Below are positions 9,158 through 54,615 of a stretch of DNA of 64,000 bases, piece by piece. The notes under the pieces were generated by a model that was not told the origin of the DNA, ran no database searches, and saw nothing but the letters and a program-made list of their open reading frames with translations. The translations under genes and the position numbers were made by a program. This DNA is from Gemmatimonadaceae bacterium. GTDB lineage: Bacteria > Gemmatimonadota > Gemmatimonadetes > Gemmatimonadales > Gemmatimonadaceae. The stretch covers positions 124,001-188,000 of the forward strand of contig DASXKV010000067.1 in assembly GCA_036496605.1 (NCBI GenBank). Direction: 5' to 3'. Numbering within the stretch: position 1 is the first letter of the stretch; each line of letters starts with the position of its first letter.

Positions 9158-9184
9158 TGTCGACCTGGGAAGAATCGTAAGGCG

Positions 9185-9853: not shown

Positions 9854-9928
9854 GGTGGGACCTCTCATTCATCGGGGTTGATCTCGAGTTGAGAACGTAC
9901 GCCGCGGCGCAGTCGTTGGAAGGGGACC

Positions 9929-9966: not shown

Positions 9967-10101
9967 TCACTCGACACTCGCCAGTCACGTCTCCGGAATT
10001 TTCCTGAGCGACGTCTCCGTAACCCCTAATCGGGTAAATCGTCCGGGATATGGCGAAGCGGCCGCGACTTCCAGCTTCGGACAAGCTTCAAAGGCAGCAA
10101 C

Positions 10102-17746: not shown

Positions 17747-17840
17747 AAAAGGGGCTAGGGTCTAGGGGCTAGGGTCTAAGGGGAGCAAGACCCTAGCCCT
17801 AGCCCCTCGTCCCCTAGCGCCTCGTCCCCTAGCCCCTTTT
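17747..17840. terminator. Bidirectional terminator made of iterated CTAG words
   Basis: AAAAGGGGCTAGGG (17747-17760) and its exact complement CCCTAGCCCCTTTT (17827-17840) bound a spacer built from GGGGCTAGGGTCTA repeats and then CCCTAGCCC repeats. The A-run and T-run make it look like a terminator on both strands, and it fills the gap between the convergent DUF1854 and sthA genes to the base. Confidence 0.75.
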
Positions 17841-36270: not shown

Positions 36271-36300
36271 TTGACACCACCGCAAGAGGGCTGTCATGAT
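36271..36300 (+). promoter_or_regulatory. Sigma70-like promoter of the SusC locus 2 operon
   Basis: TTGACA (36271-36276), 18 bases, CATGAT (36295-36300), 100 bases before the SusC start and 19 bases after the kinase stop. A perfect -35 in such a GC-rich setting makes chance less likely. Confidence 0.6.
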
Positions 36301-36399
36301 AGCGCCGTAAGGTTTGGCATACCAAAATTGTGTACCACGCGGACGGACGGTCGTCCGTGCGGCGACGTGGCCCCAGTCTCTCGCTCCGGGAGAATTCCC

Positions 36400-39342
36400 A
36401 TGCGACTTGCCGCTCTGGTGTCCCTCCTCCTCACGACAATCCCCACACTCAGTGCGGCGCCGCAAGCGACGGGCGTCGTCAGCGGTGTCGTCCTCGCCCA
36501 TCAGTCGCTGCGCCCACTCGCGGGCGCGCAAGTCGGCGTGGTCGGCACGCGCCTCGGTGCGCTGAGCGACGCCAACGGCCGCTTCCGCCTCGCGGGAGTA
36601 GAGGGCGACAGCGTCTCGCTCGACGTCCGTCTCATCGGATTCCAGCCTGCCAAACTCGTCGCGCGTGTGGGCGACGCCAATGTGCGCGTCCTGCTCAGCG
36701 AGGTCGCCGTCTCACTCGACCAGGTGGTCGTCACGGGGACCGCTGGGGTCACCGAACAGCGTGCGATGGGCAATCTGCTCGAGAAGGTGCAGACGGAAGA
36801 CGTCGTGCGCACCGCGCCAGTTGTGACGCCGCAGCAGCTGCTCGAGGGACGCGTTGCGGGGCTCGTCGTGTTGCCGGGATCGGGAAATATCGGTACCGGC
36901 AGCACGATGCACATCCGTGGCGTTGCGAGTCTGTCCCTCACGAATCAGCCGCTCATCTACGTCGACGGCGTGCGTGTCGACAATTCGGCATCGGGTGGCC
37001 CTTCGATTCGAGACGGCGCGCAAGTCGCGCGCATCAACGACATCAACCCCGAGGACATCGAGTCGATGGAGGTCATCAAGGGGCCGGCGGCGGCAACGCT
37101 CTACGGCACCGAGGCCTCGAGCGGCGTGATCCAGATCATTACGAAGCGCGGACATGCGGGCGTGGAGACGTACGATTTCGCGATGCAGCAGGGCACGAGC
37201 TGGCTCGCCGATCTCGGGCAGAAGGTGCCGACGCTCTGGGGAGTCGACAGCACCGGCGCCCTAACGAGCGTCAACCTCTATGAAAAAGAGAAGGCCGCGG
37301 GCCGCGATCCATTCCAGACCGGCACGATCCAGGGATATACGGCGCGCATGAACGGCGGCACGGACGCCGCCCGCTACTACGTGTCCGGCGCGTACGATCG
37401 GTCGACGGGAATCGAGTCCTACAACTGGCAAGACAAATACTCCGGCCGCACCAACCTGAATCTGATGCGGAGCGAGAAGGTGCAGGTGTCGGCCGATCTC
37501 GGGTACACGCACACGTTGACGCGGCTCGGCCAATCGGCAACGGGATGGGATCTTTGGAGCAACATCGTGTGGGGCTCGCCGGCGCGCCTCAACACCGCGA
37601 CGCGTGGTTTCCTGCGCGCCCCGCCCGAGGCCTCGTCGCAGATCGAGTCGATGGAGGACATCCAGCGCGTCACGGGCAGCCTGCAGCTGCTGAACAAGCC
37701 GACGCGATGGTTCAGCCATCGCCTAACGATCGGGACCGACGCCGCCAACTCCATCAGCTCCGTGCTCTTTCCACGCGATCCGGCGGGCGCGGCGTACTTC
37801 TTCGGAACGCTGAGTCTCGGACAGAAGACGGAAGATCGCCTAACGACGACCTTCAACACCATCGATTACTCGGCGACGGCCACCGCCAGCCTCCCCTTCG
37901 CGCTCGCCTCGGCGAGCTCGTTCGGATTCCAGGACTACTCGAAGCGATACGCCAGTGCCGAAGCCGTGGGCAAGTCGTTTCCGTCTCCATCCGTGACGTC
38001 CATCGGCGGCGCGGCGATCACGACCTCCACTGAAGATCTCATCGAGAACAAGACGGTCGGATTCTACGTCCAGGAGCAGGTGAGCCGAGCGAACCGACTG
38101 TTCCTCACCGCGGCGCTGCGGGGCGACAACAACAGCGCATTCGGCGCAAACTTCAAGCACGCGCTCTATCCGAAATTCAGCGGCAGCTGGGTCGCGAACG
38201 AGGAGCCTTTCTGGCACTGGACCAGTGTGAATGCGCTGCGTATTCGCGCCGCATATGGCAAAGCGGGAAAGCAGCCCGACGTCTTCGCCGCGCAGCGATT
38301 GTATCAGCCCGCCACGGGTCCGGGCGATGCCGCTGTGATCACGCCGCTCGCGATCGGCAATCCGGATTTGCGTCCCGAAGTCAGCAGTGAAGTCGAGCTC
38401 GGATTTGACCTCGGTGCGTTCGACGATCGGATCGGCGTCAATTTCACCTACTACGACCAGATGGCGCGCGATGCCATCGTCCAGCGTCAGGTCGAGCCAT
38501 CGCTCGGTTTTCCTGGATTCCAATATGTGAATGGTGGACGCGTCGCCAATCACGGGACGGAGCTCTCTCTCGATACGCACCCCATACGTCGCCGCCGTCT
38601 GGACTGGGCGATCGGCGGGCAGATCGCGACCAATAACAACCGCGTCGTGACGTTAGGCGGTCTTCCACCGATCTCGCTCGGCAGCAGCCAGTTCGACCGG
38701 GTTGGCTACCCCGTCGCCGGCTTCTTCGCGAAGCGCGTGATCTCGGCGCAGCTCGATCAGACGGGCAAGCCGTCCAACCTCATTTGCGCGGGAGACGCCA
38801 GCACGAACAACCAATCGGTGCCGTGTGCATCGGCCCCTTTGGTGTACTGGGGCACACCGACCGCGCGATGGACCGGCAACGTCAGTAGTAGCGTGACACT
38901 CTGGCGCAGTCTGCGGCTGTACGGGCTCGTCGACTTCCGCGGCGGCCAAACGATCAATGACGGCGACGTCTCCGCAGCACATACGGCGTTCCGCAACAGC
39001 AAGGCGATCAACGAGAAGACCGATCCGATTCTGATGGCGTACGACCAGCTCGGCACCATCGACCAGCTCGGATTCTTCAAGGCCGGTTTCGCGAAGCTCC
39101 GTGAGCTGTCCGCGACGTACACGCTCAGCGGGCGCCCCCTTCAGCGCCTGGGCGCATCGGGCGCATCGATCAGCATTGCCGGCCGCAACCTCGCGACGCT
39201 CTGGCGCGCACAGAAAGACATCTTCGGGGAGATCATCGCCGATCCGGAGATCGGCATCCCGAGCAGTGAGCTATCCAACTACGTCCAATCCGTCGTCCCG
39301 CCGCTAGCGCAATTCGTGGCGACGTTCCGGCTCACCTTCTAG
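36400..39342 (+). CDS. SusC/RagA-type TonB-dependent receptor, locus 2
   Basis: A 980-residue outer-membrane protein: signal peptide (about 1-22), carboxypeptidase-regulatory-like domain (GVVSGVVLAHQSLRPLAGAQ), plug with MHIRGVASLSLTNQPLIYVDG and GPAAATLYGTEASSGVIQI, and a long barrel. The longer frame back to the TTG at 36271 coincides with the promoter -35 and is rejected in favour of the ATG at 36400. It heads a four-gene run: the SusD-like gene starts 17 bases later, then CocE and an amidohydrolase overlap by four bases each. Only distantly similar to the locus 1 receptor, so probably tuned to another substrate. Confidence 0.9.
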   Translation: MRLAALVSLLLTTIPTLSAAPQATGVVSGVVLAHQSLRPLAGAQVGVVGTRLGALSDANGRFRLAGVEGDSVSLDVRLIGFQPAKLVARVGDANVRVLLSEVAVSLDQVVVTGTAGVTEQRAMGNLLEKVQTEDVVRTAPVVTPQQLLEGRVAGLVVLPGSGNIGTGSTMHIRGVASLSLTNQPLIYVDGVRVDNSASGGPSIRDGAQVARINDINPEDIESMEVIKGPAAATLYGTEASSGVIQIITKRGHAGVETYDFAMQQGTSWLADLGQKVPTLWGVDSTGALTSVNLYEKEKAAGRDPFQTGTIQGYTARMNGGTDAARYYVSGAYDRSTGIESYNWQDKYSGRTNLNLMRSEKVQVSADLGYTHTLTRLGQSATGWDLWSNIVWGSPARLNTATRGFLRAPPEASSQIESMEDIQRVTGSLQLLNKPTRWFSHRLTIGTDAANSISSVLFPRDPAGAAYFFGTLSLGQKTEDRLTTTFNTIDYSATATASLPFALASASSFGFQDYSKRYASAEAVGKSFPSPSVTSIGGAAITTSTEDLIENKTVGFYVQEQVSRANRLFLTAALRGDNNSAFGANFKHALYPKFSGSWVANEEPFWHWTSVNALRIRAAYGKAGKQPDVFAAQRLYQPATGPGDAAVITPLAIGNPDLRPEVSSEVELGFDLGAFDDRIGVNFTYYDQMARDAIVQRQVEPSLGFPGFQYVNGGRVANHGTELSLDTHPIRRRRLDWAIGGQIATNNNRVVTLGGLPPISLGSSQFDRVGYPVAGFFAKRVISAQLDQTGKPSNLICAGDASTNNQSVPCASAPLVYWGTPTARWTGNVSSSVTLWRSLRLYGLVDFRGGQTINDGDVSAAHTAFRNSKAINEKTDPILMAYDQLGTIDQLGFFKAGFAKLRELSATYTLSGRPLQRLGASGASISIAGRNLATLWRAQKDIFGEIIADPEIGIPSSELSNYVQSVVPPLAQFVATFRLTF

Positions 39343-39358
39343 CGGCATCGAGGCTACC

Positions 39359-40636
39359 ATGCGTCTTCCGACACTTGCGATGTCTCTGCTTCGCGGTCGC
39401 GCGCGCGACACGGTCCTCGCCGCGCTGACGCTGAGCAGTCTTGGCGTGGCGGCGTGCAAGGGAATTCTCAGCGTCGATCTGCCAACACGCGTCTCCGCCG
39501 GAGTCCTCGATGATCCGTCGTTCGCGCCGACGATGGTGCAGGGCGCCATCGCGGATTTCGAGTGCGCGTATACCAACTATGCGGCCGCGACCGGCCTCTT
39601 GACCGACGAGCTGATCGAGTCCACCGGCTTCATTGCCTGGTTCAGTTGGGACCTGCGACGCATTCCGTCCAGCAACTCGAGTCTTGGCGGCAACACCTGT
39701 ACCGGTGCTGGTTATGGCGTCTACACGCCGCTGCAGACGGCGCGGTTCTCCGCATCGGATTCGTACAAGCGCGTTCAGGGGTTCGCGGACGCGTCCGTGC
39801 CTAACAAGACCTCGCTTCTCGCGACCGCCGCGGCCTACGAAGGTTTTTCGCTGACGCTCCTTGGCGAGGGTTTCTGCCAGATGGCGGTCGATGGCGGGCC
39901 GTTGATGACTCCAGCGCAAACGCTCGCGCTCGCGGAGGCGCGATTCACCGACGCGATGCAGCTTGCGACGACGGCGAGCAACGCCTCCATTCTCGACTTC
40001 GCCACGCTCGGGCGGGCGCGCGCCAGGCTGGACGAAGGCAACAAAGCGGGAGCGGACGCCGACGCGAAGCTGGTGCCGCAAGGCTTCGTGCTGAACGCGA
40101 CATACGACGCCGCCGCGGAGCGACATCGCAATCGCGTCTACGTCGACAACTTCGTCAATCTGTATACCTCGGTCGATCCACGCTTCCGCAGCCTGACCTT
40201 CGGCGGCGTCGCCGATCCGCGCGTCCCGACGAAGAACGCCGGCCGCCTCGGTAACGATGGCGTGACGCAACTCTGGCAGGAGCTCCGCTACACCGGAGAA
40301 ACGTCCCCGATGCCCATCGCTACGTGGAACGAAGCGCAGCTCATCATCGCCGAGGCGGAAGGCGGACAGGCAGCCGTGGACGCGATCAATCGCCTGCACA
40401 CGGCAGCGGGTCTGCCGGCGTTCAGCAGCACCGACGACGCAACGACCATGGCGCAAGTGTACGAGGAGCGGCGGCGCGAGCTGTTCCTCACCGGGCACCG
40501 GATCAACGATATGCTGCGCCTGAGCATTCCATTTGATACCGGAAACGACGCGAAGGGTCAGCCCTTCGGGACGACGACGTGCCTGCCGCTTCCCGATGTA
40601 GAAACACTAAACAACCCCAACATCACGCATCCATGA
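39359..40636 (+). CDS. SusD/RagB-like surface lipoprotein, locus 2
   Basis: A 425-residue lipoprotein with a signal ending in GVAAC, followed by ILSVDLPTRVSAGVLDD, which matches the start of short SusD-like proteins of this phylum. TPR-like helices and a late MAQVYEERRRELFLTGHRINDMLRL segment, a family hallmark, are present. A GAGG ribosome site precedes the ATG. Its stop overlaps the CocE start (ATGA at 40633-40636). Likely binds substrate for the adjacent SusC barrel. Confidence 0.84.
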   Translation: MRLPTLAMSLLRGRARDTVLAALTLSSLGVAACKGILSVDLPTRVSAGVLDDPSFAPTMVQGAIADFECAYTNYAAATGLLTDELIESTGFIAWFSWDLRRIPSSNSSLGGNTCTGAGYGVYTPLQTARFSASDSYKRVQGFADASVPNKTSLLATAAAYEGFSLTLLGEGFCQMAVDGGPLMTPAQTLALAEARFTDAMQLATTASNASILDFATLGRARARLDEGNKAGADADAKLVPQGFVLNATYDAAAERHRNRVYVDNFVNLYTSVDPRFRSLTFGGVADPRVPTKNAGRLGNDGVTQLWQELRYTGETSPMPIATWNEAQLIIAEAEGGQAAVDAINRLHTAAGLPAFSSTDDATTMAQVYEERRRELFLTGHRINDMLRLSIPFDTGNDAKGQPFGTTTCLPLPDVETLNNPNITHP

Positions 40637-42396
40637 CAGCGCGCAGCGTAGCGACTCTCTTCGCTCTGCTCTCGCTCGGAGCGAGCTCGGCCCGAGCACA
40701 GGACACGTCGGTCATCAAGTATCCGATGCTCGTGCGATACAACGTCCGAGTCCCGATGCGGGACGGCGTTCATCTCTCCATCAACGTGTTCCAACCACGG
40801 ACGAGGACGAAGCATGCCACGGTGATGATCCTGACGCCGTACGGTAAGGACCTCGGCAATCCGTTCGAGGAAGCGTGGTCTTTCGTGAAGCATGGCTACG
40901 CGTTCGTGTCCATCGACGCGCGCGGCCGTTATGACTCGGACGGCGATTTCACGCCCAATCGGGGAGATGGCCCGGATGGCAGTGACGTGATGAACTGGAT
41001 CGCGCGGCAACCGTGGTCCGACGGACGGATCGCAACCTACGGCGGTTCGTACCTGGGCAAGGTGCAGTGGGAAATGGCGAAGCAGAACAATCCGCACCAT
41101 GTCGCCATCATGTCCTACGTGTCTCCCGCCGACGACTGGAACGACGAATCCCGCTACAACGGCGTGCCCAAGCTCGACCTCATGTACACCTGGATGATGG
41201 GTATGTACGGGCGCGTCGGGCATCCAGCCGCCGGCTTCGATTGGGGCAAGTTGATGCGAGGTCTGCCGCTCACATCGCTCGACACCGCCGCCGGACGCGA
41301 CATGCCGTTCTGGCGACAGCTCATGCTCCATGATCGGCTGGATGCGTTCTGGATGCCGTCGCAGATGACCGGCTCGTACGGCAAGTTCGACATTGCGAGC
41401 TTCAATGTGACGGGCTGGTACGAGGGTCAGCTCAAGGGCGCGGTGCAGAACTTCACGAACGCGGTGAAGTACTCCAAGACGCCTGGCGCGCACATGTTGG
41501 TCGTCGGCCCCTGGCTCCATGGCGTGAATCGCAATCGCGTCATCGGCGACCGCGATGCAGGCCCGCATGCGATCATCAATCTCGACAGCATTCGGGACGC
41601 CTGGCTCGACAGCCGATTGCTCGGCGCACCGAATCCGGATCTGCCGCACGTCTTGTATTTCCTGCCGGTCAAGAACGAGTGGCACAGCGCAGCGTCCTGG
41701 CCGGTTCCCGGAACGACATTCACGTCTTTTTATCTCGCGAGCAATGGCAACGCGAACACTCTGCACGGCGACGGGTTGTTAGGCAGCGATGCCGCCGCGC
41801 AGCGCGTGCCGTCCGACACGTTCACGTATGATCCCGCGAACCCCACGCCGTCGCTGAGCAGCCGTACCGCGGGCGCGCGCGGCGGTCTGCCGCAAGGTTC
41901 CGTCGACAGCCGGAAGAACGAGGAGCGAGGCGACGTACTCGTCTACACTGGAGAGCCGCTGGCCCAAGGCATGGAGGTCACCGGTCCGGTGCGCGCGACG
42001 ATCTACCTCTCGACGAACGTTGTCGACACGGACATCGCGCTGAAGCTGCTCGACGTGTACCCGGACGGTCGAGCGCACAACCTCACCGAAGGGATCGCGC
42101 GCGCGAAATATCGCACCTCGCCCAGCTCACCGGAGCTGATGCGACCCGGGCAAGTCTACAAGATCGACGTGGAGCTCTTCCCGACGAGCAACTGGTTCGA
42201 GGCTGGTCACCGGATCCGGCTCGAGGTCGCGAGCAGTGACTTCCCGAACTTCGCTCGCAATCTCAACACGGCCAACTCCGATTCGGGGACAGAGATCAAA
42301 GTGGCACACACCACGATCCTGCATTCGCGTCAATACCCGTCGGCGATCGTGTTGCCGGTTGTGGGTGCGGGCCAGACCGTAACGCTGGTGCCGTGA
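40633..42396 (+). CDS. CocE/NonD-family hydrolase (X-Pro peptidase-like), secreted
   Basis: A 587-residue protein with a signal peptide ending near ARAQ (about 22). The alpha/beta-hydrolase core has the nucleophile elbow GGSYLG with Ser139, DARGRYDSDGDF as oxyanion-region sequence, and a C-terminal jelly-roll-like domain (about 380-580) ending in GAGQTVTLVP, as in CocE and S15 X-prolyl dipeptidyl peptidases. Members cleave esters, beta-lactams or N-terminal peptide bonds; with a SusCD pair and an amidohydrolase next to it, acylated peptides or amino acids are the likely class. Starts and ends with 4-base overlaps, so it is translationally coupled on both sides. Confidence 0.87.
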   Translation: MTARSVATLFALLSLGASSARAQDTSVIKYPMLVRYNVRVPMRDGVHLSINVFQPRTRTKHATVMILTPYGKDLGNPFEEAWSFVKHGYAFVSIDARGRYDSDGDFTPNRGDGPDGSDVMNWIARQPWSDGRIATYGGSYLGKVQWEMAKQNNPHHVAIMSYVSPADDWNDESRYNGVPKLDLMYTWMMGMYGRVGHPAAGFDWGKLMRGLPLTSLDTAAGRDMPFWRQLMLHDRLDAFWMPSQMTGSYGKFDIASFNVTGWYEGQLKGAVQNFTNAVKYSKTPGAHMLVVGPWLHGVNRNRVIGDRDAGPHAIINLDSIRDAWLDSRLLGAPNPDLPHVLYFLPVKNEWHSAASWPVPGTTFTSFYLASNGNANTLHGDGLLGSDAAAQRVPSDTFTYDPANPTPSLSSRTAGARGGLPQGSVDSRKNEERGDVLVYTGEPLAQGMEVTGPVRATIYLSTNVVDTDIALKLLDVYPDGRAHNLTEGIARAKYRTSPSSPELMRPGQVYKIDVELFPTSNWFEAGHRIRLEVASSDFPNFARNLNTANSDSGTEIKVAHTTILHSRQYPSAIVLPVVGAGQTVTLVP

Positions 42397-44621
42397 CGAC
42401 GCGTCGACCCCTGAGGATTGGAGCTGCGTTCGCCGCCGCGCTCGTACTCACTGCGGCGGTCGAGCGAGAGACGCATCACGAGTCGGATATCGTGCGTAGG
42501 TCGGTGCCGGTCGCGCCGACCTACGACCTCGTGATCGCGAACGCGCGCGTCATCGATCCCGAGACCAAACTCGACGCGACACGAAACGTGGGGATTGCGA
42601 AAGGAAAGATCGCGGTGATGTCCAGCGCGCCGCTCGCTGGCCGCACGAGCATCGATGCGCGAGGCCTCGTCCTCGCGCCCGGTTTCATCGATGTGCACGC
42701 CCACGGACAGGACGCGGAGAACTATCGCTACTACGCAATGGACGGCGTGACCTCGGCCATGGAGCTCGAGCTCGGGACCGACGACGTCGATGCATGGTAT
42801 GCCGAGCGGGCGGGGAAGGCGCTCGTGAACTATGGCGTTTCGATCGGGCACATGCGCGTCCGCATGCGCGTGATGAAAGACTCGAGCCGCACGTATGCGA
42901 GCGGCGATGCGGCGCACCGGGCGGCGAGCGATTCGGAAATTGCGTTGATACGCGCGCGAATCGTGGATGGTTTGGAGCGTGGTGCGATCGGCGTCGGCTT
43001 CGGGCTCTCGTACACTCCCGCGGCATCTCGATGGGAAGTTCTCGAGGGATTTCGCGCAGCCGCTGCCGTGGACGCGCCGGTGTTCGTGCACATGCGGTAC
43101 ATCGGCGAGCAGGAGCCGGCGAGCAGCGTTGACGCGCTCGAGGAAGTACTTGCTGCGGCGGCGGTCTCCGGAGCTTCGCTGCACGTGATGCACGTTCATA
43201 GCAGCGGGCTGCGCGCCACGCCACGGCTGCTGCAGATGATTCGTGAGGCACGCGCGCGAGGACTCGATGTCACGACCGAGGCCTACCCATATACGGCCGG
43301 GAGCTCGGGAATCGAGTCGGCGCTTTTCGACCCCGGCTGGCAGCAGGCGCTCGGGATCGACTACCACGATATCGAGTGGGCGGCGACGGGCGAGCGCCTA
43401 ACGGCGAGCACCTTCGCGATCTACCGCAAGCAACATGGCATCGTGATTGTCCATATGATCCCCGAGGACGTCGTCGCCACGGCGATTGCGAGTCCACTCA
43501 CATTCGTTGCAAGCGATGCCCGGATGCAGAACGGGCATGGCCACCCGCGGAGTGCCGGCACCTTTGCGCGTGTACTCGGCCACGATGTTCGCGACACGCA
43601 TACGCTGTCCCTCATGGACGCGCTGACGAAGATGACGTTGATGCCGGCGCGCCGTCTCGAGCATCGACTGCCGGCGATGCGGCACAAGGGGCGCGTTCAG
43701 ATCGGAGCCGATGCCGACCTGGTGGTATTCGATCCAGCAAGCGTGATCGATCGTGCGACCTACGCGCAGCCGGCGCAGTACTCAGAAGGCTTCGAGTATG
43801 TGCTGGTGGGTGGCGTGCCGGTCGTCTGGCACGGGAAGTTGAGAGAAGACTCGTTACCGGGCCGGCCCCTGCGCGCGCCGCCGGCGCCGCAACGGCCGAT
43901 CGGGGCCGCAGCGTTAGGCGACTCTGACCGCGGGCGTCCGACGGGTTCCGATCGGACGCAGCGGAACGGCTTCCATCGGCAAGTCGGCGTTGGCGGCCGC
44001 GACGCGACGCGCGGTGCGCCGGCGCAGCCGAAACAAGCGACGGACCGCTTCGCTCATCCCGAGGGCGACGATGCTGTGCCTAACGGTCTCCTCGCAGTAT
44101 CCGATGCGCGCGGCGACTTCCTTGAGCGAGATAGTTCCCTGACGCCGGACCTCGCGCAGGATCGCCAGCACGTCGATGTGCTTCGTCGCGCGATGCCTCC
44201 CGAGTCCCGCCTCCATGACACACTGCCGCACCGACGTGCGGCCGCTGCCAAGGACGAAAGCGATCTCTTCGACCGTCGCGCCGCCCAGGTAGAGCGCCAT
44301 CACCCACGCGTCCCGCTGCTCGCGGTTCAGTCGCGGTGTGCGCGGAATGTCGGTGCGGGCGGGAGCGTCGGCGCTCGTGATGACAGTCCGTGCGGTGAAG
44401 GTGCGCATCCGAAATACCTGGGTGTGAGGGAACGCATGCGTCGCATCGTCGCGAGTGCCAACGACTACATCAGAGGAGGGAAGCGCCTGCGCAATGGAGA
44501 CGCCGTGACTGGAAGCGCGGTAACAGTGTCCCTTGCGCCGCCACTCGGGTGTCGAACCGGTCGGCCCTTCCGGGTAGGGCAGCGTGTCCGAGCCGTTGAG
44601 TGCACTCGTGAGCGCGACTAG
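42393..44621 (+). CDS. N-acyl-D-amino-acid deacylase-like amidohydrolase with read-through tail
   Basis: Starts at GTG overlapping the CocE stop (GTGA). Residues 1-500 form a metal-dependent amidohydrolase of the D-aminoacylase/dihydroorotase type: signal-like N-terminus, FIDVHAHG (metal HxH), HVHSSG, and late SDARMQNGHGHPRS, closing with ADLVVFDPASV and a GKLREDSLPGRPLRAP ending typical of the family. The frame then continues for about 240 residues of Arg/Asp-rich sequence antisense to the HTH gene at 43914-44408, with no homology expected. A one-base shift would end the protein at TAG 43915-43917, so the tail is likely a lost stop or frameshift. Probable role: freeing D-amino acids from N-acyl forms. 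Confidence 0.75.
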   Translation: MTTRRPLRIGAAFAAALVLTAAVERETHHESDIVRRSVPVAPTYDLVIANARVIDPETKLDATRNVGIAKGKIAVMSSAPLAGRTSIDARGLVLAPGFIDVHAHGQDAENYRYYAMDGVTSAMELELGTDDVDAWYAERAGKALVNYGVSIGHMRVRMRVMKDSSRTYASGDAAHRAASDSEIALIRARIVDGLERGAIGVGFGLSYTPAASRWEVLEGFRAAAAVDAPVFVHMRYIGEQEPASSVDALEEVLAAAAVSGASLHVMHVHSSGLRATPRLLQMIREARARGLDVTTEAYPYTAGSSGIESALFDPGWQQALGIDYHDIEWAATGERLTASTFAIYRKQHGIVIVHMIPEDVVATAIASPLTFVASDARMQNGHGHPRSAGTFARVLGHDVRDTHTLSLMDALTKMTLMPARRLEHRLPAMRHKGRVQIGADADLVVFDPASVIDRATYAQPAQYSEGFEYVLVGGVPVVWHGKLREDSLPGRPLRAPPAPQRPIGAAALGDSDRGRPTGSDRTQRNGFHRQVGVGGRDATRGAPAQPKQATDRFAHPEGDDAVPNGLLAVSDARGDFLERDSSLTPDLAQDRQHVDVLRRAMPPESRLHDTLPHRRAAAAKDESDLFDRRAAQVERHHPRVPLLAVQSRCARNVGAGGSVGARDDSPCGEGAHPKYLGVRERMRRIVASANDYIRGGKRLRNGDAVTGSAVTVSLAPPLGCRTGRPFRVGQRVRAVECTRERD
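43914..44408 (-). CDS. Protein with two helix-turn-helix segments
   Basis: A 164-residue protein. HTH one (about 33-70) is LNREQRDAWVMALYLGGATVEEIAFVLGSGRTSVRQCV; HTH two (about 88-125) is centred on ISLKEVAARIGYCEETVRHSI, followed by a very basic RRLFRLRRRTARR tail suited to DNA contact. The ATG at 44408 follows an AGG-containing stretch; an upstream open frame to 44786 overlaps the GNAT gene and is not used. The stop TAA lies in a GCCTAACG word. It converges on the amidohydrolase and diverges from the acyltransferase gene, so it may regulate either. Family not recognised. Confidence 0.6.
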   Translation of the reverse strand: MRTFTARTVITSADAPARTDIPRTPRLNREQRDAWVMALYLGGATVEEIAFVLGSGRTSVRQCVMEAGLGRHRATKHIDVLAILREVRRQGTISLKEVAARIGYCEETVRHSIVALGMSEAVRRLFRLRRRTARRVAAANADLPMEAVPLRPIGTRRTPAVRVA

Positions 44622-44661
44622 CTTCTCGCCTTCCCCGAGAACGAGCACGCCTCCGTCGCGC

Positions 44662-45495
44662 ATGTCAGCTTCCGACGTCGATATCCGTCCGCTCCGCACG
44701 CAGAAGGAGCTCCACGCCTGCGTCGCGCTCCAGCACGAAACATGGGGCGACGAGTTCACGGACGTGGTGCCCGCGAGCATTCTCAAGGTCTCACAGCGCG
44801 TCGGCGGTGTCGCCGCCGGTGCCTTCGACGCGCACGATCGGCTGCTCGGCTTCGTCTACGGGCTCACCGGCGTCGAGCATGGCCGGATCGTCCACTGGTC
44901 CGACATGCTCGCGGTTCGTCCCGAAGCGCGGAACCTTGGCCTGGGCCGCCGGCTGAAGGAATATCAGCGCAGAGTCGTGCAGCAGCTCGGCGGCGTCGTC
45001 ATCTATTGGACCTACGATCCACTCGTTGCGCGCAACGCTCATCTCAACTTCAACGTGTTCGGCGTGCGGATCGCCGAGTACGTGGAAGACATGTACGGCG
45101 AGACGGAGAGTCCCTTACATCAGGGCATTGGCACGGATCGTTTCGTGGTCGCGTGGCCAGTGCCTGACGCGGACGTGAAGCGGCGGCTGGCGGAGACGCA
45201 CGCCGCGGCGGTCGACCGCCAGCTTCTCGAATCGCCGGTCCTGAATCCCGGCAACAGTGCTGCCGCAGCGGACGGCGCAATCCCTGATCGCGCGCGCATC
45301 GAGGTGCCGACCGACATCAATGACCTGCAACATTCGGATCGCAACCGCGCGATCGCCTGGCGTCACTCGACACGGGCCGCGTTCGCCCGTGCACTCGCGG
45401 CGAAGCTCACCGTTCAGGGTTTTGTAATCGATGAGTGCGCGCACCGCGGCCATTACCTGTTGGCGAGAGGCGATGGGCGAGGGGCCCGCATCTAG
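44662..45495 (+). CDS. GNAT-family N-acyltransferase of the N-succinylamino-acid pathway type
   Basis: A 277-residue GNAT protein. The acetyl-CoA/succinyl-CoA binding motif is VRPEARNLGLGRRLKEYQRR, preceded by VHWSDMLAV; a second half (about 150-277) has no separate fold call. The start at 44662 (MSASDVDIRPL) is preferred over an in-frame ATG-less stretch to 44584. Its next neighbours are an OSBS/N-acylamino-acid racemase and an M20 deacylase. In Geobacillus a GNAT N-succinyltransferase, N-succinylamino-acid racemase and a desuccinylase form a route from D- to L-amino acids, and the same trio and order here supports that role. Confidence 0.75.
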   Translation: MSASDVDIRPLRTQKELHACVALQHETWGDEFTDVVPASILKVSQRVGGVAAGAFDAHDRLLGFVYGLTGVEHGRIVHWSDMLAVRPEARNLGLGRRLKEYQRRVVQQLGGVVIYWTYDPLVARNAHLNFNVFGVRIAEYVEDMYGETESPLHQGIGTDRFVVAWPVPDADVKRRLAETHAAAVDRQLLESPVLNPGNSAAAADGAIPDRARIEVPTDINDLQHSDRNRAIAWRHSTRAAFARALAAKLTVQGFVIDECAHRGHYLLARGDGRGARI

Positions 45496-45580
45496 GGAAC
45501 GGCAGGCCCAGCCTAACGCGTGACCGTTCCTCGCCCCTCGTCCTGAATCCCTAGCCCCTATTCTCTAGCCCCTAGCCCCT
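45496..45580. repeat. Hairpin plus iterated CCCCTAG words
   Basis: GGAACGG (45496-45502) pairs with CCGTTCC (45524-45530) right after the acyltransferase stop, with a GCCTAACG word in the loop. Repeats of CCCTAGCCC then run to 45580, six bases before the racemase ATG. The word set matches the 17747-17840 terminator. It may reduce read-through from the acyltransferase into the racemase. Confidence 0.5.
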
Positions 45581-45586
45581 CCTTCC

Positions 45587-46729
45587 ATGCTCCGTCTCGA
45601 CCGCCTCGTCCTGCGCGAGATCCGTCTCGCGCTCAAGGAGCCCTTCCGGATTTCGTCTGGCGTTTGCACCGAACGCCGCATTCTTCTCCTCGAGCTGTAT
45701 GACGCCGACGGCGCCGCGACGTGGGCCGAATGTGTCGCCGGCGAGCAACCGAATTACACTCCGGAAACAATCGACACGGCATGGTTCGCGATTCGCGAGT
45801 GGCTCGCGCCGCGCCTGCTCGGCCGGAGCTTCGACGGCCCCGAGGTAATTCACAGCGTGCTCGAGCAGAATGTGCGCGGCCATAACATGGCGAAAGCGTC
45901 GCTCGAGATGGGGATGTGGGCGCTCGCGGCGACGAAGGAGGGTGTCTCGCTGTCGCATCGCCTCGGCGGCACGCGCGAGCGCATTCCCACCGGAATCTCG
46001 CTCGGCATCCAGGCCACGCCCGACGCACTCGTCCAGCGCGCGAAGGCCGCGTTCGCTCAAGGGTATCGCAAAATCAAGCTCAAGATTCAGCCGGGACAGG
46101 ATGTCGAGTACGTGCGCGCGGTCCGTAACGCGCTCGGGCCGGCGGTGCACCTCATGGCCGACGCCAACTCCGCCTACACGTTGTCCGACGCCGACCATCT
46201 CGCGCAGCTCGATGCGTTCGATCTGATCATGATCGAGCAGCCACTCGGCCGCGACGATATCGTTAGGCATGCCAAGCTCCAGAAGCGTCTCAAGACCCGC
46301 TTGTGTCTCGACGAGTCGATCACCGACGCCGACCGCGCCGAGGACATGATCGAGCTGGGCTCGGGGAAGATCATCAACATCAAGCCCGGCCGCGTTGGCG
46401 GGTTCACGGTCTCGAAAACGATTCACGACATCTGTGAGCGCAACAAGATCCCGGTGTGGTGCGGCGGCATGCTCGAGAGCGGCGTCGGTCGCGCGCATAA
46501 CGTGGCGCTCGCATCGCTACCGAATTTCAGCCTGCCGGGCGATCTCAGCCCGAGCGCGCGCTACTGGGAACGCGACGTGGTGACGCCCGAATGGACGATG
46601 GACGCCGACGGAATGGTCCTCGTCCCACGCAGCCAGCCTGGGATCGGGATCACTGTCGATACCGGCCGAGTCGAGGATTTGACGGTGAAGCGCGAGGCGC
46701 TCGAGAGCCGCTCGATGGCCACACGATGA
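45587..46729 (+). CDS. N-acylamino-acid racemase / o-succinylbenzoate synthase-type enolase
   Basis: A 380-residue enolase-superfamily enzyme of the OSBS/NSAR class. Catalytic Lys residues lie in KIKLKIQPG (KxK) and INIKPGRVGG, metal ligands in DANSAYT, IEQPL and DES. Such proteins can dehydrate SHCHC to o-succinylbenzoate for menaquinone or racemise N-succinylamino acids. No other men genes are near; the flanking acyltransferase and M20 deacylase favour the racemase function, though both activities may be present. The stop overlaps the M20 start by four bases (ATGA at 46726-46729), so the two are coupled. Confidence 0.85.
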   Translation: MLRLDRLVLREIRLALKEPFRISSGVCTERRILLLELYDADGAATWAECVAGEQPNYTPETIDTAWFAIREWLAPRLLGRSFDGPEVIHSVLEQNVRGHNMAKASLEMGMWALAATKEGVSLSHRLGGTRERIPTGISLGIQATPDALVQRAKAAFAQGYRKIKLKIQPGQDVEYVRAVRNALGPAVHLMADANSAYTLSDADHLAQLDAFDLIMIEQPLGRDDIVRHAKLQKRLKTRLCLDESITDADRAEDMIELGSGKIINIKPGRVGGFTVSKTIHDICERNKIPVWCGGMLESGVGRAHNVALASLPNFSLPGDLSPSARYWERDVVTPEWTMDADGMVLVPRSQPGIGITVDTGRVEDLTVKREALESRSMATR

Positions 46730-47940
46730 CGGTCGCGCCGGCAGCATCGGACCTCCCGGCGGCTGTTGAGAATCTTTTTACTGGGGCGCTCCGGCAATCG
46801 CTGATCGAGCTGCGTCGCGCGATCCACTCCGATCCCGAGCTGTCGTTTCAGGAGGAGCGTACGGCACAGAAGCTCGAGCGTGCGCTCGCGTCGATCACTG
46901 GCGCGACCGTACGCCGCGTCGCGAAGACCGGCGTCGTCGCTCGGATTCGCGGCCGGAATAGTGCCGCGCCGCTCGTCGCTGTTCGGGGCGACATCGATGC
47001 GCTGCCGGTACGCGAAGAAACCGGTCTGGCCTTCGCATCGCATAACGATGGCGTCATGCATGCGTGTGGACACGATGTGCACGCAACGTGGGCAGTTGGT
47101 GCTGCGGCGCTTCTCGCCGAACATCCGGCCGCCGGTGACGTGCTGATAGTGCTCCAGCCCGCCGAGGAGACCGGCCGCGGCGCGCCGGCGATCATCGAGA
47201 CCGGCGCGCTCGACGACGTCCGCGCGATCTTCGGCGGCCACGTCGACCGCCGCTTCCCCGTCGGCCAGGTCGTTGCCGACGAAGGGCCGCTCGCGGCGTC
47301 CGCCGACATGTTCGTGATCGAGTTGCTCGGGCAGGGTGCACACGCGGCGCGCCCGCACGAGTCGGCGGATCCCATCGTCGGACTTGGCGCGCTCATTGGC
47401 GCGATCCAGACTATCGTGTCGCGACGTTTGAATCCGGCCAATCCCGGTGTCGTCACGATCGGCACGGTGCGCGCGGGCACCGCGTCGAATGTGATTCCCG
47501 ATCGCGCGACGCTCACCGGCACGGTACGAGCCGTAGACGCCCCCTCGCGACGCCTGATGCTCGACGAGGTGCGTCGCATCGCCGAGAGCATCGCTGCTGC
47601 CTATCGACTCACCGCGAACGTCGAGCTCGAGCTGGGCACACCGCCGATCGTCAATCCGCCTAACGCGACGGCATGGGCGCGCCGTGCGGCGACATCGCTT
47701 CTCGGGGAGTCGAGCGTGGTCCCACTCGGCTTTCTCAACCTGGCGGGTGAGGACTTCGCCCATTATATGGAGCGTATTCCGGGTTGCTTCCTTCGTATTG
47801 GCGCCCGCGAGCCCGGTGGTGTCGCCATTCCCGCGCACGCGCCGAAGTTCTACGCAGCCGAGGAGAGCATCTTCGTGGGCGCTGCGGTGCTCGCCGAGGC
47901 GGCGCGAGTCGCGTCGGCCGCACTGAGTCCCGAACGGTGA
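46726..47940 (+). CDS. M20-family amidohydrolase (N-acyl-L-amino-acid deacylase type)
   Basis: A 404-residue metallopeptidase-fold enzyme. Metal-binding and catalytic motifs are HACGHDVHAT, PAEETGRGAP and, near the end, GEDFAHYME, the pattern of the M20D/HipO-AbgB branch. The start at 46726 overlaps the racemase stop and gives a normal length; the frame upstream to 46591 lies in the racemase gene. In the D-to-L route, this enzyme would remove the acyl group from the L-isomer and make the sequence irreversible. No signal peptide, so cytoplasmic. Confidence 0.86.
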   Translation: MTVAPAASDLPAAVENLFTGALRQSLIELRRAIHSDPELSFQEERTAQKLERALASITGATVRRVAKTGVVARIRGRNSAAPLVAVRGDIDALPVREETGLAFASHNDGVMHACGHDVHATWAVGAAALLAEHPAAGDVLIVLQPAEETGRGAPAIIETGALDDVRAIFGGHVDRRFPVGQVVADEGPLAASADMFVIELLGQGAHAARPHESADPIVGLGALIGAIQTIVSRRLNPANPGVVTIGTVRAGTASNVIPDRATLTGTVRAVDAPSRRLMLDEVRRIAESIAAAYRLTANVELELGTPPIVNPPNATAWARRAATSLLGESSVVPLGFLNLAGEDFAHYMERIPGCFLRIGAREPGGVAIPAHAPKFYAAEESIFVGAAVLAEAARVASAALSPER

Positions 47941-48024
47941 GGGCTGAGGGCAGAGGGCAGTGGGTGGTTCTGACTGGCGGCGGCCTGCTCCGCGATTAAC
48001 TTCGCTGCGGTCTCGACTGCCCTC
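47939..48024. repeat. Iterated GAGGGC words with inverted partner
   Basis: GAGGGC recurs at 47939, 47946 and 47953 with a 7-base period, beginning on the last bases of the M20 stop codon. GAGGGCAGT (47953-47961) is exactly complemented by ACTGCCCTC (48016-48024), 54 bases apart. It fills much of the 132-base gap before the permease. Confidence 0.55.
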
Positions 48025-48072
48025 CAACGCGCTACGCTCTGCGCACAGCGCTCTATCGCTCTACCAAGAAAA

Positions 48073-49437
48073 ATGGCCTCCCTCAATCGCACGCTCACGC
48101 TTCGCGATCTGATCCTCATCGTCATCGGCACAGTCATCGGCTCGGGGATCTTCCTCGTGCCCGGCGTGGTGCTGAAGCAGAGTGGCGGATCGATTGGTGT
48201 TTCGTTGCTCGTCTGGCTGGCGGCCGGCGTGCTCTCGCTCCTCGGTGCGTTCACCTATGGCGAGATGGGGGCGTCGAAGCCGGACGCCGGCGGTCTCTAC
48301 GTCTATCTTCGCGACGCGTTAGGCCCGCTTCCGGCTTTTCTCTACGGCTGGACGATGTTCTTCGTCATCGCTGCGGGATCCTGCGCGACGCTCGCGGTCG
48401 CCTTCACGAACTACCTCGGGCAGTTCGTTGCGCTCTCGCCGATTGCCGGAAAGATCGTTGCCGTCCTCATGATCGTTGTCGTGATGGTGATCAACGTGCG
48501 CGGTACGCGACAGGGTGCGAATGTCCAGGGCATCGCCACGGGGATCAAGGTCGCCGCGATTCTCATCATGAGCGTGCTCCTGATCGCGGTCGGCCACGGC
48601 TTCTCGCAAACGCCGCAGATCTGGCCGGCGGCGTGGAATGGATCGCTCTTCGCGGGCGTCGGTGTGGCGATGATCGGCGTGCTCTGGGCGTACGAGGGTT
48701 GGCAGTACGTGACGTTCTCCGCCGGCGAGACGAAGGATCCACAACGCGTTTTCCCGTTAGGCATCGCCATCGGCACGGCGGCGATCATCGTCATCTACGT
48801 CCTAGCCAACGTTGGCTACTTCGCCGCGCTCGGCGCTGACGGTGCGATGAAGAGCGAGCGGATTGCCGCGGAGTCGATGGCGCTGGCGTTCGGTCCGGCA
48901 GCGGGGAAGCTCATTGCCGCGACGATTCTCGTCTCGATGTTCAGTGCGGCGAACGGCATCACGCTCACGGCGCCGCGACTCTATTACTCCATGTCGCGCG
49001 ATGGCGTCTTCTTCGCCAAGCTCGCGGAGGTGCACCCACGCTTCAGCACGCCCGCGATCGCGATCGTGACGAGCTCGGTGTGGGCGATGGTCCTTGCCGC
49101 GACCGGGACATTCCAGCAGCTGCTGACATACGTTGTGTTTGTCGGTTGGATTTTCTACGCCTTGGGCGCGCTCGCGATCTTCGTCTACCGGCGGCGCGAG
49201 CCCAACCTGCCGCGGCCATTTCGCACGCCGGGATATCCGCTGACGCCGATTCTCTTCGTGCTTTCCGCCGCGGCGATCGTTATCAACACGATCGCGACGC
49301 AACCGCAGAATGTGATCTTCGCGCTCGCGCTCATGGTGCTCGGTGTGCCCGCCTATTACATGTGGCGGAGCCGATTGGCGAAAGCACCGGCGGATGCGTT
49401 GAAGTCGCCGTCGTCAAAGGTGCGCGAAAGGGTCTAG
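48073..49437 (+). CDS. APC-superfamily amino acid permease
   Basis: A 454-residue, 12-helix transporter. Helix one contains IGTVIGSGIFLVPG, the unwound substrate-binding segment of the family, and FTYGEMGASKPDAGGLYVYL is the usual helix 2-3 region. Helices run to about residue 435. LAT-like members exchange or import neutral amino acids through the inner membrane. Its place 132 bases after the deacylase suggests supply or release of amino acids handled by the preceding enzymes; the substrate is not deducible. Confidence 0.88.
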   Translation: MASLNRTLTLRDLILIVIGTVIGSGIFLVPGVVLKQSGGSIGVSLLVWLAAGVLSLLGAFTYGEMGASKPDAGGLYVYLRDALGPLPAFLYGWTMFFVIAAGSCATLAVAFTNYLGQFVALSPIAGKIVAVLMIVVVMVINVRGTRQGANVQGIATGIKVAAILIMSVLLIAVGHGFSQTPQIWPAAWNGSLFAGVGVAMIGVLWAYEGWQYVTFSAGETKDPQRVFPLGIAIGTAAIIVIYVLANVGYFAALGADGAMKSERIAAESMALAFGPAAGKLIAATILVSMFSAANGITLTAPRLYYSMSRDGVFFAKLAEVHPRFSTPAIAIVTSSVWAMVLAATGTFQQLLTYVVFVGWIFYALGALAIFVYRRREPNLPRPFRTPGYPLTPILFVLSAAAIVINTIATQPQNVIFALALMVLGVPAYYMWRSRLAKAPADALKSPSSKVRERV

Positions 49438-49524
49438 CCGCCGCGCGTATCTTGGTGCGCGCCGTGTGAGGCCGGTCACCGCACGCCGCGCAAAAATCGG
49501 CACCTTCAGGCGTCCGGAGGTGTC

Positions 49525-49746
49525 ATGTTTGAGAAGCAACTCGAGGTTGGCGCGAAGCTCGTCGTGTCGACCGCTGATGGTGACGAGGAAGACGAAGTGA
49601 CGCGCGTGCTCGTGACCGCCGTCGATGCCGGAGTGTGGGTCGTCGAGACCGCGCGCAACGGCCGGGTCATCGTTATGAAGGGCCGTGGAGCTTCCCACTG
49701 GACGAATCCCCAGCCTTTCGTCCTGGATAACAACACGCTGGCGTAG
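49525..49746 (+). CDS. Small acidic hypothetical protein
   Basis: A 73-residue protein starting at an ATG with GGAGG four bases upstream (49516-49520). It is a likely small beta-barrel: alternating strands such as LVVSTADGDEEDEVTRVLV and GVWVVETARNGRVIVMK. No family was recognised. The strong ribosome site and normal codon use support a real gene. Confidence 0.62.
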   Translation: MFEKQLEVGAKLVVSTADGDEEDEVTRVLVTAVDAGVWVVETARNGRVIVMKGRGASHWTNPQPFVLDNNTLA

Positions 49747-49771
49747 CGTCGCAAAGCCTAACGGGAAATGG

Positions 49772-50668
49772 TCAGGGTGTCATATCCGGGTCGTACGTGC
49801 CGATGAATTCCAGAAACTTCGACACTTGCAGAATATCCCGACCTTCGAAGCGAATCGCATGGGACGAGGTCCGCTGCACGATCGGCAGGAAGCTGAGCAT
49901 CTCTGCAGGCGTATAGTTCTTGAACGTCACGTCGAGACGCACGGGCGCGCGCACGACAAATGGCCGCAGCGACGCGCGGCGCTGCACGCCGGCCTTCACC
50001 TTCTGCCTGACGAGTAACTGTGCGGCCTCCGGCGTCATCGTCGCCGCCGCGTGGAAGCTGATCGCTTGTTTCACGACGGCACCCTCCATTGCTCCGATGA
50101 GCGTCTGCGCTTCGGCGACGGCGACGTTGTCCCCCGAGATCGCGACGATCGGTACGCCGAAATAGCCCGCGATGGCCGCGTTGATTCCGGACTCCGGCAT
50201 CGCGACGCCATTGAGCTCGACGGCCGCATAGTGAGCGCTCGAGATGGTGTGCGCCCGCACGCCGGCGGGGTTGGTCGTGGCCGCGTGATAGCCGATGAAG
50301 ACCGCCGCGTCGAAGGTGGAGTCGATGCCCTGCATCATCATCAATGGACGGGGCCACGATCGAATGATGGTCACGTCCGGAGGAAACTTGTCGATGAGCA
50401 GACTCTCACCATTGCCGTGCGAGTCGCTGACGACGATCTGCGTCGCGCCGGCGTCGCGCGCTCCAGCGATCGCCGCGAGCGCTTCGCCGGTCATGAACTC
50501 CCGAGCACGCTGGTACTCGAAGCCGGTCGGCGAGAGTTGATCCGCCGTGACGACGCCAGCGATTCCCTCCATATCGACCGAGATGTACACCTTCAGGGGG
50601 CGTTGGGCGGCGAGCGGAGTGCCCAACAGCAGGAGGAACAATGCGAAACAATGGAAAGAGCGACGCAT
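49772..50668 (-). CDS. M55-family D-aminopeptidase, secreted
   Basis: A 298-residue protein with a signal peptide (1-21, ending in PLAAQ). VYISVDMEGIAGV at the mature N-terminus is the M55/DppA hallmark, with further metal-site motifs SDSHGNGES, FIGYHA and EVSAI-like NAAIAGYFGVP. Bacillus DppA is a decameric zinc aminopeptidase releasing D-Ala from D-Ala-D-Ala peptides. The frame extends upstream to 51028, overlapping the FKBP gene, but the ATG at 50668 starts the signal. It converges on the 73-residue gene and lies next to the D-amino-acid-related cluster. Confidence 0.88.
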   Translation of the reverse strand: MRRSFHCFALFLLLLGTPLAAQRPLKVYISVDMEGIAGVVTADQLSPTGFEYQRAREFMTGEALAAIAGARDAGATQIVVSDSHGNGESLLIDKFPPDVTIIRSWPRPLMMMQGIDSTFDAAVFIGYHAATTNPAGVRAHTISSAHYAAVELNGVAMPESGINAAIAGYFGVPIVAISGDNVAVAEAQTLIGAMEGAVVKQAISFHAAATMTPEAAQLLVRQKVKAGVQRRASLRPFVVRAPVRLDVTFKNYTPAEMLSFLPIVQRTSSHAIRFEGRDILQVSKFLEFIGTYDPDMTP

Positions 50669-50882: not shown

Positions 50883-51350
50883 ATGAAGCGAATAGCGTTC
50901 GTCCTCCTGCCTTGCCTCCTCCTCGCCGCCTGCCTAACGTCGCCCAAGGAGTGCCTGCTGAACCCGAGCGACCCCGCGACCGAGACATTCTCGCCCGCGC
51001 TTGGCGTCAATCTCGACTCGATGTTCAAGACGCAGCTTGGCGACTATCTCCAGGACAACGTCGTCGGAACCGGCGTGCTGCTGGACTCGTTGCAGGTGGT
51101 GCAGATTCACTATTCGGCCTACCTCAAGGACGGCACACTGATCGATCAAGAGATCAGCACGCCGTTTCCGATCGATCTGAGTAGCACGGCGACACTCGGA
51201 TTGGCCGACGGGATGCTCGGCATGAACGTCGGCGGACAACGGACCATCGTCGCGCCCTCGGCGAACGCGCTCGGTGCGTGTCCGAATGGACCCGTGCCCG
51301 GCAACTCGACGCTCGTGTACAAGGTCGAGCTGCTGCAGATCGGGACCTGA
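50883..51350 (+). CDS. FKBP-type peptidyl-prolyl isomerase lipoprotein
   Basis: A 155-residue lipoprotein with signal LLLAAC. The FKBP core shows VVQIHYSAYLKDGTLIDQE, the late GLADGMLGMNVGGQRTIVAPS and a final LVYKVELLQI strand, matching the minimal FKBP fold. Several active-site aromatic residues of FKBP12 are absent or replaced, so isomerase activity may be weak. It acts in the periplasm if active. The 214-base region before it (50669-50882) holds no gene; its stop is 52 bases before the acetoacetyl-CoA synthetase start. Confidence 0.8.
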   Translation: MKRIAFVLLPCLLLAACLTSPKECLLNPSDPATETFSPALGVNLDSMFKTQLGDYLQDNVVGTGVLLDSLQVVQIHYSAYLKDGTLIDQEISTPFPIDLSSTATLGLADGMLGMNVGGQRTIVAPSANALGACPNGPVPGNSTLVYKVELLQIGT

Positions 51351-51401
51351 CGGTCGGCTGGGTTCGCAACGTCGACGCTCCGCACCAATCGGCAACCCTC
51401 C

Positions 51402-53395
51402 GTGAGCGGCCCGCTGTGGACGCCGTCACCGGCGGACGTCGCGCAGGCTAACGTCACGCGATTCATATCGTTCGTGAACGGTCGCGGCGCGGCTGTTCAC
51501 GATTATTCGAGCTTGTACGCCTGGTCTATCGCGCGGCCGGAGGAGTTCTGGAGCGCGCTGTGGGAATTCTCCGGCATCGTCGCCGAACGCGATGCGCTGG
51601 GGAGCGGGCGAGCATGGCGGTCGGTGCTCATCGGCGGCGATCGCATGGCGCCTCCTGACCCGACGCGTGGTCCCCGCTGGTTCGATGGCGCGCGGCTCAA
51701 CTTCGCCGAGAATCTGCTCCGCTTTCGCGACGAGCACGTTGCGATCATCGCGTGGAATGAGCTCGGTGCGGGCAGACGCCTCACGTATGCTCAGCTGTAC
51801 GCGGAGACCGCGCGCCTGGCCGCCACGCTCCGCGCACACGGCGTCCGGGCCGGAGACCGCATCGCGGCGTTCATGCCTAACGTTCCCGAAACGATCATCG
51901 CGATGCTCGCGACGGCAAGCATTGGCGCGATCTGGTCTTCCTGTTCTCCCGATTTCGGAGTTCAGGGAGTCATGGATCGATTTGGCCAGATCGAGCCTCG
52001 CATCCTGTTCTGTGCCGATGGGTATCGATACTCGGGCAAGGAGGTCGATTCGCTCCGGACAGTCGCCGGGATTGCGCAGCGGATCTCGAAGATCGAGCGC
52101 ATCGTCGTCGTCCCTTACATGCGCGAAAGACCAGATGTGAGCGAGGTGCCCCGAGCCGTCATGTACGAAGATTTCATTGGCTCGACGCCGGAGCACGAAT
52201 TGGAGTTCGCGCGACTTCCATTCGATCAGCCGCTCTACGTGATGTACTCGTCAGGCACGACGGGCCTCCCCAAGTGCATGGTCCACGGTGCCGGCGGGAC
52301 GCTTTTGCAGCACCAGAAAGAGCACCTCCTGCACTGCAATCTCACGCGGGGCGACCGAGTGTTCTACTTCACGACCTGCGGTTGGATGATGTGGAATTGG
52401 CTCGCCTCCGCGCTCGCTGTCGGGTCCACGCTCGTGCTCTACGACGGAGCAGCGTTTCTTCGCGGGCGAGCGATTCTGTGGGACATGGCGGCGGCCGAGC
52501 GGATCACAGTCTTCGGAACGAGCGCGAAATGGCTCGCGCTCGCCGAGAAGGAAGGGCTCAGGCCACGCCAGACTCACGACTTGTCGGCGCTCGAGTCGAT
52601 CCTGTCCACAGGCAGCCCGCTTGCCGCGAACAGCTTCGACTACGTGTATGAGCATGTGAAATCCGACGTGCGCCTCAGCAGCATCAGCGGCGGTACTGAT
52701 CTCGTCTCCTGCTTTGCGCTCGGCAACCCCATCGGTCCCGTCTGGCGCGGAGAAATTCAAGTGCGGGGCCTCGGCATGAAGGTCGAAGTCTTCGACGAAG
52801 AAGGACATTCCATCATCGAGCGCCCGGGAGAGCTGGTGTGTACCGCACCGTTCCCGAGCATGCCGATTTACTTCTGGAACGACTCCTCCGGCGAGAAATA
52901 TCGGTCGGCGTACTTCGATCACTTTCCGAACGTGTGGCGTCACGGCGACTGGGCGGAATTGACCAGCCACGATGGTGTGGTGATCTACGGCCGGAGCGAC
53001 GCGACGCTCAATCCCGGCGGGATTCGCATCGGCACGGCCGAGATTTACCGTCAGGTCGATCAATTACCGGAAGTGCTCGAGAGTCTCGTCGTTGCTCAGG
53101 AGCTGCCCGGCGCGCATGACGACGTGCGAATCGTGCTCTTCGTACGCCTCGTCGCGGGCGAGCTCCTCAGCGAAGCGCTGAAGGAGCGGATCCGCTTACA
53201 GATTCGAAGGAACGCGAGCCCGCACCACGTTCCGAAGAAGATTGTCCAGGTCGCGGACATTCCGCGCACGATCAGCGGCAAGATCACGGAGCTCGCGGTG
53301 CGCGACGTGATTCACGGTCGGCCGGTAAGGAACCGGGATGCCCTGGCGAACCCGGATGCGCTGGAGCTGTTTCGCGATCTGCCAGAGCTGCGCGA

Positions 53396-53399
<4 letters not shown>
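51402..53399 (+). CDS. aacS: Acetoacetyl-CoA synthetase
   Basis: A 665-residue ANL-superfamily ligase starting at GTG. ATP-binding motif YSSGTTGLPK, middle motif GTSAKWLALAEKEGL, TTCGWMMWN, and the C-terminal GRSDATLNPGGIRIGTAE hinge with the acyl-adenylate Lys in ISGKITE. Length and the N-terminal WTPSP segment fit AacS better than acetyl-CoA synthetase. It turns acetoacetate, CoA and ATP into acetoacetyl-CoA. The next two genes are HPPD and homogentisate dioxygenase, whose pathway ends in acetoacetate, a good metabolic fit. Confidence 0.88.
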
Positions 53400-54593
<1,194 letters not shown>

Positions 54594-54615
54594 CGAGCTG
54601 CCAGGTGATACGCAT

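Follow-up and report, generated by a model that had tools for sequence, protein, structure and literature searches.

In the organic matter of soils and sediments, D-amino acids derived from cell walls, among other sources, form a lasting fraction, and to our knowledge few complete routes for their use are known. A pathway from D- to L-amino acids that employs an NSAR was reportedly set out by Sakai in 2006. The route of Geobacillus kaustophilus is reported to consist of an N-succinyltransferase of the GNAT type, an NSAR and an N-succinyl-L-amino-acid desuccinylase, the same three protein families as in the gene trio analysed here. Side activity of NSAR enzymes in making menaquinone has long obscured their physiological role. 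The Sakai pathway is cited in PMC8762209, and an NSAR is in use with the L-succinylase from G. kaustophilus (PMC7431475). In the gammaproteobacterium NOR5-3, a TonB receptor gene next to one for a D-aminoacylase is read as serving N-acyl-D-amino-acid uptake (PMC3400609).

The window, the whole stretch of 64,000 nucleotides analysed here, lies on contig C67 of a 5.97-Mb genome; its closest named relatives are Gemmatimonadetes metagenome assemblies, with a racemase identity of 91% to a “Gemmatimonas sp.” soil assembly. A preliminary description had placed six candidate genes of D-amino-acid and D-peptide salvage in it, and all six lie where it put them, the deacylase, racemase, M20, APC and M55 genes recognized by family matches and the GNAT gene by its fold. 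The features of the region are as follows:

36271..39342, plus strand, SusC-type TonB-dependent outer-membrane receptor (Plug, TonB_dep_Rec and CarbopepD_reg_2 Pfam matches)
39359..40636, plus strand, SusD-type outer-membrane partner (SusD_RagB Pfam, 37.3 bits, cut-off 23.1)
40633..42396, plus strand, S15/CocE-NonD hydrolase (TIGR00976, 371 bits)
42393..44621, plus strand, N-acyl-D-amino-acid deacylase-like amidohydrolase (NF006560/PRK09061, 541.9 bits, cut-off 340, residues 39-496)
43914..44786, minus strand, HTH protein (weak HTH_DeoR match, 23.6 bits; conserved at 68-71% in two same-genus genomes)
44662..45495, plus strand, GNAT acyltransferase (ATG at 44662; predicted fold and co-occurrence with the racemase)
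45587..46729, plus strand, NSAR/OSBS-subfamily racemase (TIGR01928, 338.7 bits, cut-off 200.65)
46726..47940, plus strand, M20 amidohydrolase (TIGR01891, 335.8 bits; nearest solved relative YxeP, 1ysj)
48073..49437, plus strand, APC-family amino-acid permease (AA_permease_2, 192.8 bits)
49772..50668, minus strand, M55 (DppA-like) D-aminopeptidase (PF04951, 300 bits; aligns with DppA, 1hi9)

The genes stand, but the single neighbourhood that the preliminary description made of them does not, the deacylase belonging to a separate upstream unit and the M55 gene being convergent. This upstream unit begins with SusC, whose true start is probably downstream of 36271, and is tightly joined further on, SusD and the S15 hydrolase (with a signal-like N-terminus) overlapping by ATGA at 40633-40636 and the S15 hydrolase and deacylase by GTGA at 42393-42396. 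SusC-SusD-S15-deacylase is a unit apart from GNAT-racemase-M20-APC, with the antisense HTH gene between them. The latter, divergent from the GNAT gene, encodes a probable regulator; its start is uncertain, and one near 44660 would remove the overlap with GNAT. GNAT, racemase, M20 and APC then follow in this order with operon-like spacing on the plus strand, the racemase and M20 genes overlapping by ATGA, and M55 lies on the minus strand after APC. A promoter scan returned no promoter-like sites, and terminator-like sites in a terminator scan were no more numerous than in shuffles.

Both sequence match and nearest solved members, the N-acylamino acid racemases of Deinococcus and Amycolatopsis (1r0m, 1sja), place the racemase in the NSAR/OSBS subfamily. 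The catalytic KxK, the metal D/E/D, the second lysine and an arginine are all present (K164, K166, D192, E217, D242, K266 and R269), and these seven positions are invariant across all scorable related loci (113-115 for each position). The arginine, three residues past the second catalytic lysine, occupies the position tied to NSAR activity (R266). The best NCBIfam model for this protein bears the name o-succinylbenzoate synthase and members of the subfamily are often bifunctional, so that a role as the MenC of menaquinone synthesis has to be weighed. Against it, the best menD match in the assembled genome reaches 74.5 bits where 244.2 are required, and only 3 of 119 relatives have a menD over the cut-off, whereas MqnC of the futalosine route is over its cut-off both here (468.8 bits against 428.1, another member of the family adjoining) and in 104 of the 119 relatives. 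With no menD over the cut-off and MqnC present, the racemase is very unlikely to serve menaquinone, and its gene sits with GNAT and M20 rather than with men genes. We therefore rejected the MenC reading as scarcely credible; the racemase confined to OSBS activity for menaquinone, which the preliminary description had named as the case against salvage, is not what this genome holds, as it uses the futalosine route. If the salvage reading is true, the physiological role of NSAR enzymes becomes testable where the menaquinone side activity is absent.

The genome holds three further genes of the enolase superfamily, which score as sugar-acid dehydratase-like or DgcA/epimerase-like, none of them over a menC cut-off. 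At L004 1471-2523 (G000:C41, in this genome) lies a DgcA / L-Ala-D/L-Glu epimerase-like protein of the superfamily (230.7 bits for DgcA, cut-off 400), possibly a second D-amino-acid or wall-peptide enzyme.

In Pfam, the GNAT protein finds no more than a match below threshold. Its structure model, a confident one (pLDDT 94.3), adopts a GNAT fold over residues 2-173 (fold search: best Z 15.9, rmsd 2.7, 151 aligned); the search confirmed the domain by matching diverse acetyltransferases and named no specific function, and a sequence search of the PDB gave weak aminoglycoside acetyltransferase matches only, none close. N-acylation of D-amino acids is its probable role, and the M20 protein is a probable N-acyl-L-amino-acid deacylase. 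No NCBIfam cut-off was passed by the APC permease; M20 and APC are both broad families, which counts against the salvage reading. A second GNAT paralogue (47% identity) lies elsewhere in the genome, at G000:C38:114275-115054, and the only strong match to the racemase query in the whole genome is the window gene.

The trio is conserved as such. Close homologs of the racemase occur in 56 of 119 related genomes, and GNAT is found in 54 of these 56 and in 0 of the 63 without racemase (p = 5e-32), so that the lack of co-conservation envisaged in the preliminary description as a refutation does not apply to the trio. It might still be that the trio serves to process N-acylamino acids taken up from outside, or to render D-amino acids harmless, and not to feed on them, or that the GNAT has another role, such as acylating another amine, given that NSARs accept many N-acyl groups (PMC7431475) and that the GNAT fold matches diverse acetyltransferases with no close solved relative among them. 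We consider such uses improbable: a GNAT type never found without the racemase among the 119 genomes suits one pathway, and coupling to the M20 enzyme would yield an L-amino acid as the end product. The Geobacillus-type pathway is represented by GNAT, NSAR and M20 genes lying together, with a racemase not required for menaquinone, and the protein families, their co-conservation and the lack of a menaquinone role support the trio as a predicted route from D- to L-amino acids, as had been proposed.

The sister locus L064 keeps HTH, GNAT, racemase, M20, APC, M55, FKBP, acetoacetyl-CoA synthetase, HPPD and HGO genes. It is without the SusCD-S15-deacylase unit, so that no deacylase lies beside its trio, and the corresponding place is taken by another SusD together with an S9 peptidase gene and one resembling metallophosphatases. 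In the genus labelled g1, FKBP, acetoacetyl-CoA synthetase, HPPD and homogentisate dioxygenase (tyrosine breakdown; 50883-55809 in the window) are kept 3' of the trio, and in genera g15 and g2 acetoacetyl-CoA synthetase is kept downstream of it, often with FKBP and sometimes with HPPD. At L033 a FAD/NAD-dependent oxidoreductase (8514-10004) lies between GNAT and racemase, with similar spacing at L030, L036 and L037; these four loci come from assemblies annotated as Gemmatimonadetes or Gammaproteobacteria, and the M20 query had no match at them. Acidobacterial neighbours of GNAT and racemase (EamA transporter, TPR protein, isocitrate/isopropylmalate dehydrogenase, RecO) include none bearing on D-amino acids.

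The window also carries intergenic tandem heptamers, (CCCTAGC)n, at 9941-9951, 17750-17837, 45549-45580 and 53408-53425, some forming facing inverted arms; near matches number 12 against 0.3 expected. One tract lies just 5' of the racemase start and another 5' of HPPD. The 15-mer CCCTAGCCCCTAGCC is present in 61 copies at about 30 places in this genome, in 0-1 copies in each of 20 relatives and in 0 copies in both same-genus genomes.

The deacylase aligns with D-aminoacylase (1rjp) and also matches N-acyl-D-glutamate deacylase (3gip). Metal-site H102 and H104 and the later His and Asp positions align with these two and with NF006560; the window protein differs in having a Glu (in MELELG) where D-aminoacylase carries a ligand Cys. 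The family match stops at residue 496 of the 742-residue ORF (near 43880), and the remaining ∼245 residues, up to 44621, are a doubtful tail that overlaps the antisense HTH gene. As the latter is conserved in the genus, the deacylase appears to lack its stop or to have it shifted; either an indel in the sequence or a genuine extension may account for the tail. The deacylases of relatives form another subfamily, their identity to the window protein being mostly 25-40%, and the one inspected, at L092, has QxQ in place of the HxH metal motif, making D-aminoacylase-like activity in the relatives uncertain.

The M55 protein, with a signal-like N-terminus, clearly belongs to its family and, at 207.6 bits, stays below the 430-bit cut-off of the DppA equivalog NF058634. 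It resembles DppA of Bacillus subtilis (1hi9) in a near full-length match with metal and active-site positions aligned, and differs in that its gene stands alone, convergent with the APC permease and outside its operon, rather than in a dpp operon. M55 genes also lie near the racemase at L064, L021 and L022, an adjacency in few lineages that is suggestive at most. Across the 119 genomes, whether M55 or the NF006560 deacylase is present bears no relation to whether the racemase is (Fisher p = 1 in each case). We therefore rejected both as conserved members of the cluster, and the earlier six-gene set does not survive as a conserved unit.

Neighbourhoods were compared between 58 racemase stretches of relatives and 60 control stretches of ∼20 kb from the same genomes (tblastn, 1e-10). 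GNAT shared the stretch of the racemase at 55 of the 58 loci and M20 at 50, each against 0 of 60 controls. For the remaining genes, p values are guides and not tests of independent events because the control coordinates were picked by hand on the racemase's own contigs and the loci share ancestry: GntR/FCD regulator, 19/58 against 0/60 (p = 2e-7); D-aminoacylase-like amidohydrolase, 21/58 against 2/60 (p = 4e-6), or 14 of 34 genera against 2 of 27 control genera (p = 0.003); SusD, 13/58 against 2/60 (p = 0.002); APC, 8/58 against 2/60 (p = 0.05), with 8 genera having loci in which it adjoins the racemase; M55, 2/58 against 0/60 (p = 0.24), with 0.21 loci expected; and S12 beta-lactamase-like genes, 16/58 against 7/60 (p = 0.04). 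The last enrichment is weak because S12 genes are common, and a role for them was rejected.

Five relatives have GNAT, racemase, APC, D-aminoacylase-like, SusC and SusD genes on one strand within ∼11 kb, four of them with M20 as well. At L074, on the same contig as L038 in assembly 2013_60CM_65_52, GNAT, racemase, M20, APC, D-aminoacylase-like, SusC and SusD genes succeed one another with overlaps or short gaps, the D-aminoacylase-like protein has a lipobox-like N-terminus, and a GntR/FCD gene is divergent from GNAT. Gene order is the same at L008 (where APC is divided between two frames), L009 and L014, and at L015 minus M20. The complete path from wall-derived D-peptides put forward in the preliminary description is no conserved unit with exactly the genes it listed, and its general idea survives in the form of D-aminoacylase-like and SusCD genes recurring beside the trio; it is best seen in the L074-type tight run.

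These runs bear on the possibility that only the GNAT-racemase-M20(-APC) core is a functional unit and that the genes for the deacylase, SusCD and M55 scavenge peptides independently of it, lying beside it by chance. The separateness of the upstream unit, the SusC-SusD-S9 block in its place in the sister genome and the independence of M55 and NF006560 from the racemase all speak for chance, and the FKBP-acetoacetyl-CoA synthetase-HPPD-HGO block illustrates that seemingly unrelated genes also stay put. We nevertheless think it the less likely reading, in view of the enrichment of D-aminoacylase-like and SusD genes over control stretches, the several arrangements in which D-aminoacylase-like neighbours occur across the 14 genera, and the near-gapless run at L074.

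We lean towards reading the window as a SusCD-fed D-amino-acid salvage locus that has been split and reshuffled here. In the mechanism we infer, as regards substrates, acyl group, direction, protein location and the joint working of the window's two transcription units, the APC permease would import the amino acid, the GNAT, acting in the cytoplasm, would N-acylate (probably N-succinylate) D-amino acids, the NSAR-type racemase would interconvert the N-acyl-D- and N-acyl-L-amino acids, and the M20 enzyme would deacylate the L form, a step proposed to make the conversion one-way. In the outer part, SusC and SusD may carry D-amino-acid-containing material across the outer membrane, and exported D-acting hydrolases (the deacylase and, here, perhaps also M55) may free D-amino acids for the permease. 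The core is the best supported part of the mechanism, ahead of the outer part, and N-acyl-D-amino acids or other D-amino-acid sources fit the substrate role equally as well as wall peptides do.

More tentatively, and with less than even confidence in the reading as a whole, the window may hold a rearranged version of a locus dedicated to D-amino-acid use in Gemmatimonadota, a counterpart of the polysaccharide utilisation loci. Such a locus would combine SusCD uptake, a D-aminoacylase on the surface or in the periplasm, for which other D-acting peptidases substitute depending on the lineage, an inner-membrane permease and then CoA-dependent stereo-inversion by GNAT-NSAR-M20, with one regulator over all. 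Should the locus function in this way, a phylum that is common in soil and seldom cultivated has a gene kit of its own for D-amino-acid use.

The GNAT-racemase-M20 core is the published Geobacillus D-to-L route and is not new. Searches of the open-access literature brought up no NSAR locus described together with SusCD, and the packaging of the trio with SusCD import and deacylation genes, tightest in the relatives, appears to be undescribed. The window resembles the system of NOR5-3 in that an outer-membrane receptor adjoins a D-aminoacylase in both, and differs in that SusC is here accompanied by SusD and that no racemase trio is mentioned in the available part of that source (PMC3400609). 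It resembles the Geobacillus kaustophilus pathway in its intact racemase catalytic residues and in its gene coupling, and differs from it in adding an adjacent APC permease and a divergent HTH gene, and in having SusCD and D-aminoacylase-like genes nearby that in relatives join the trio in one run.
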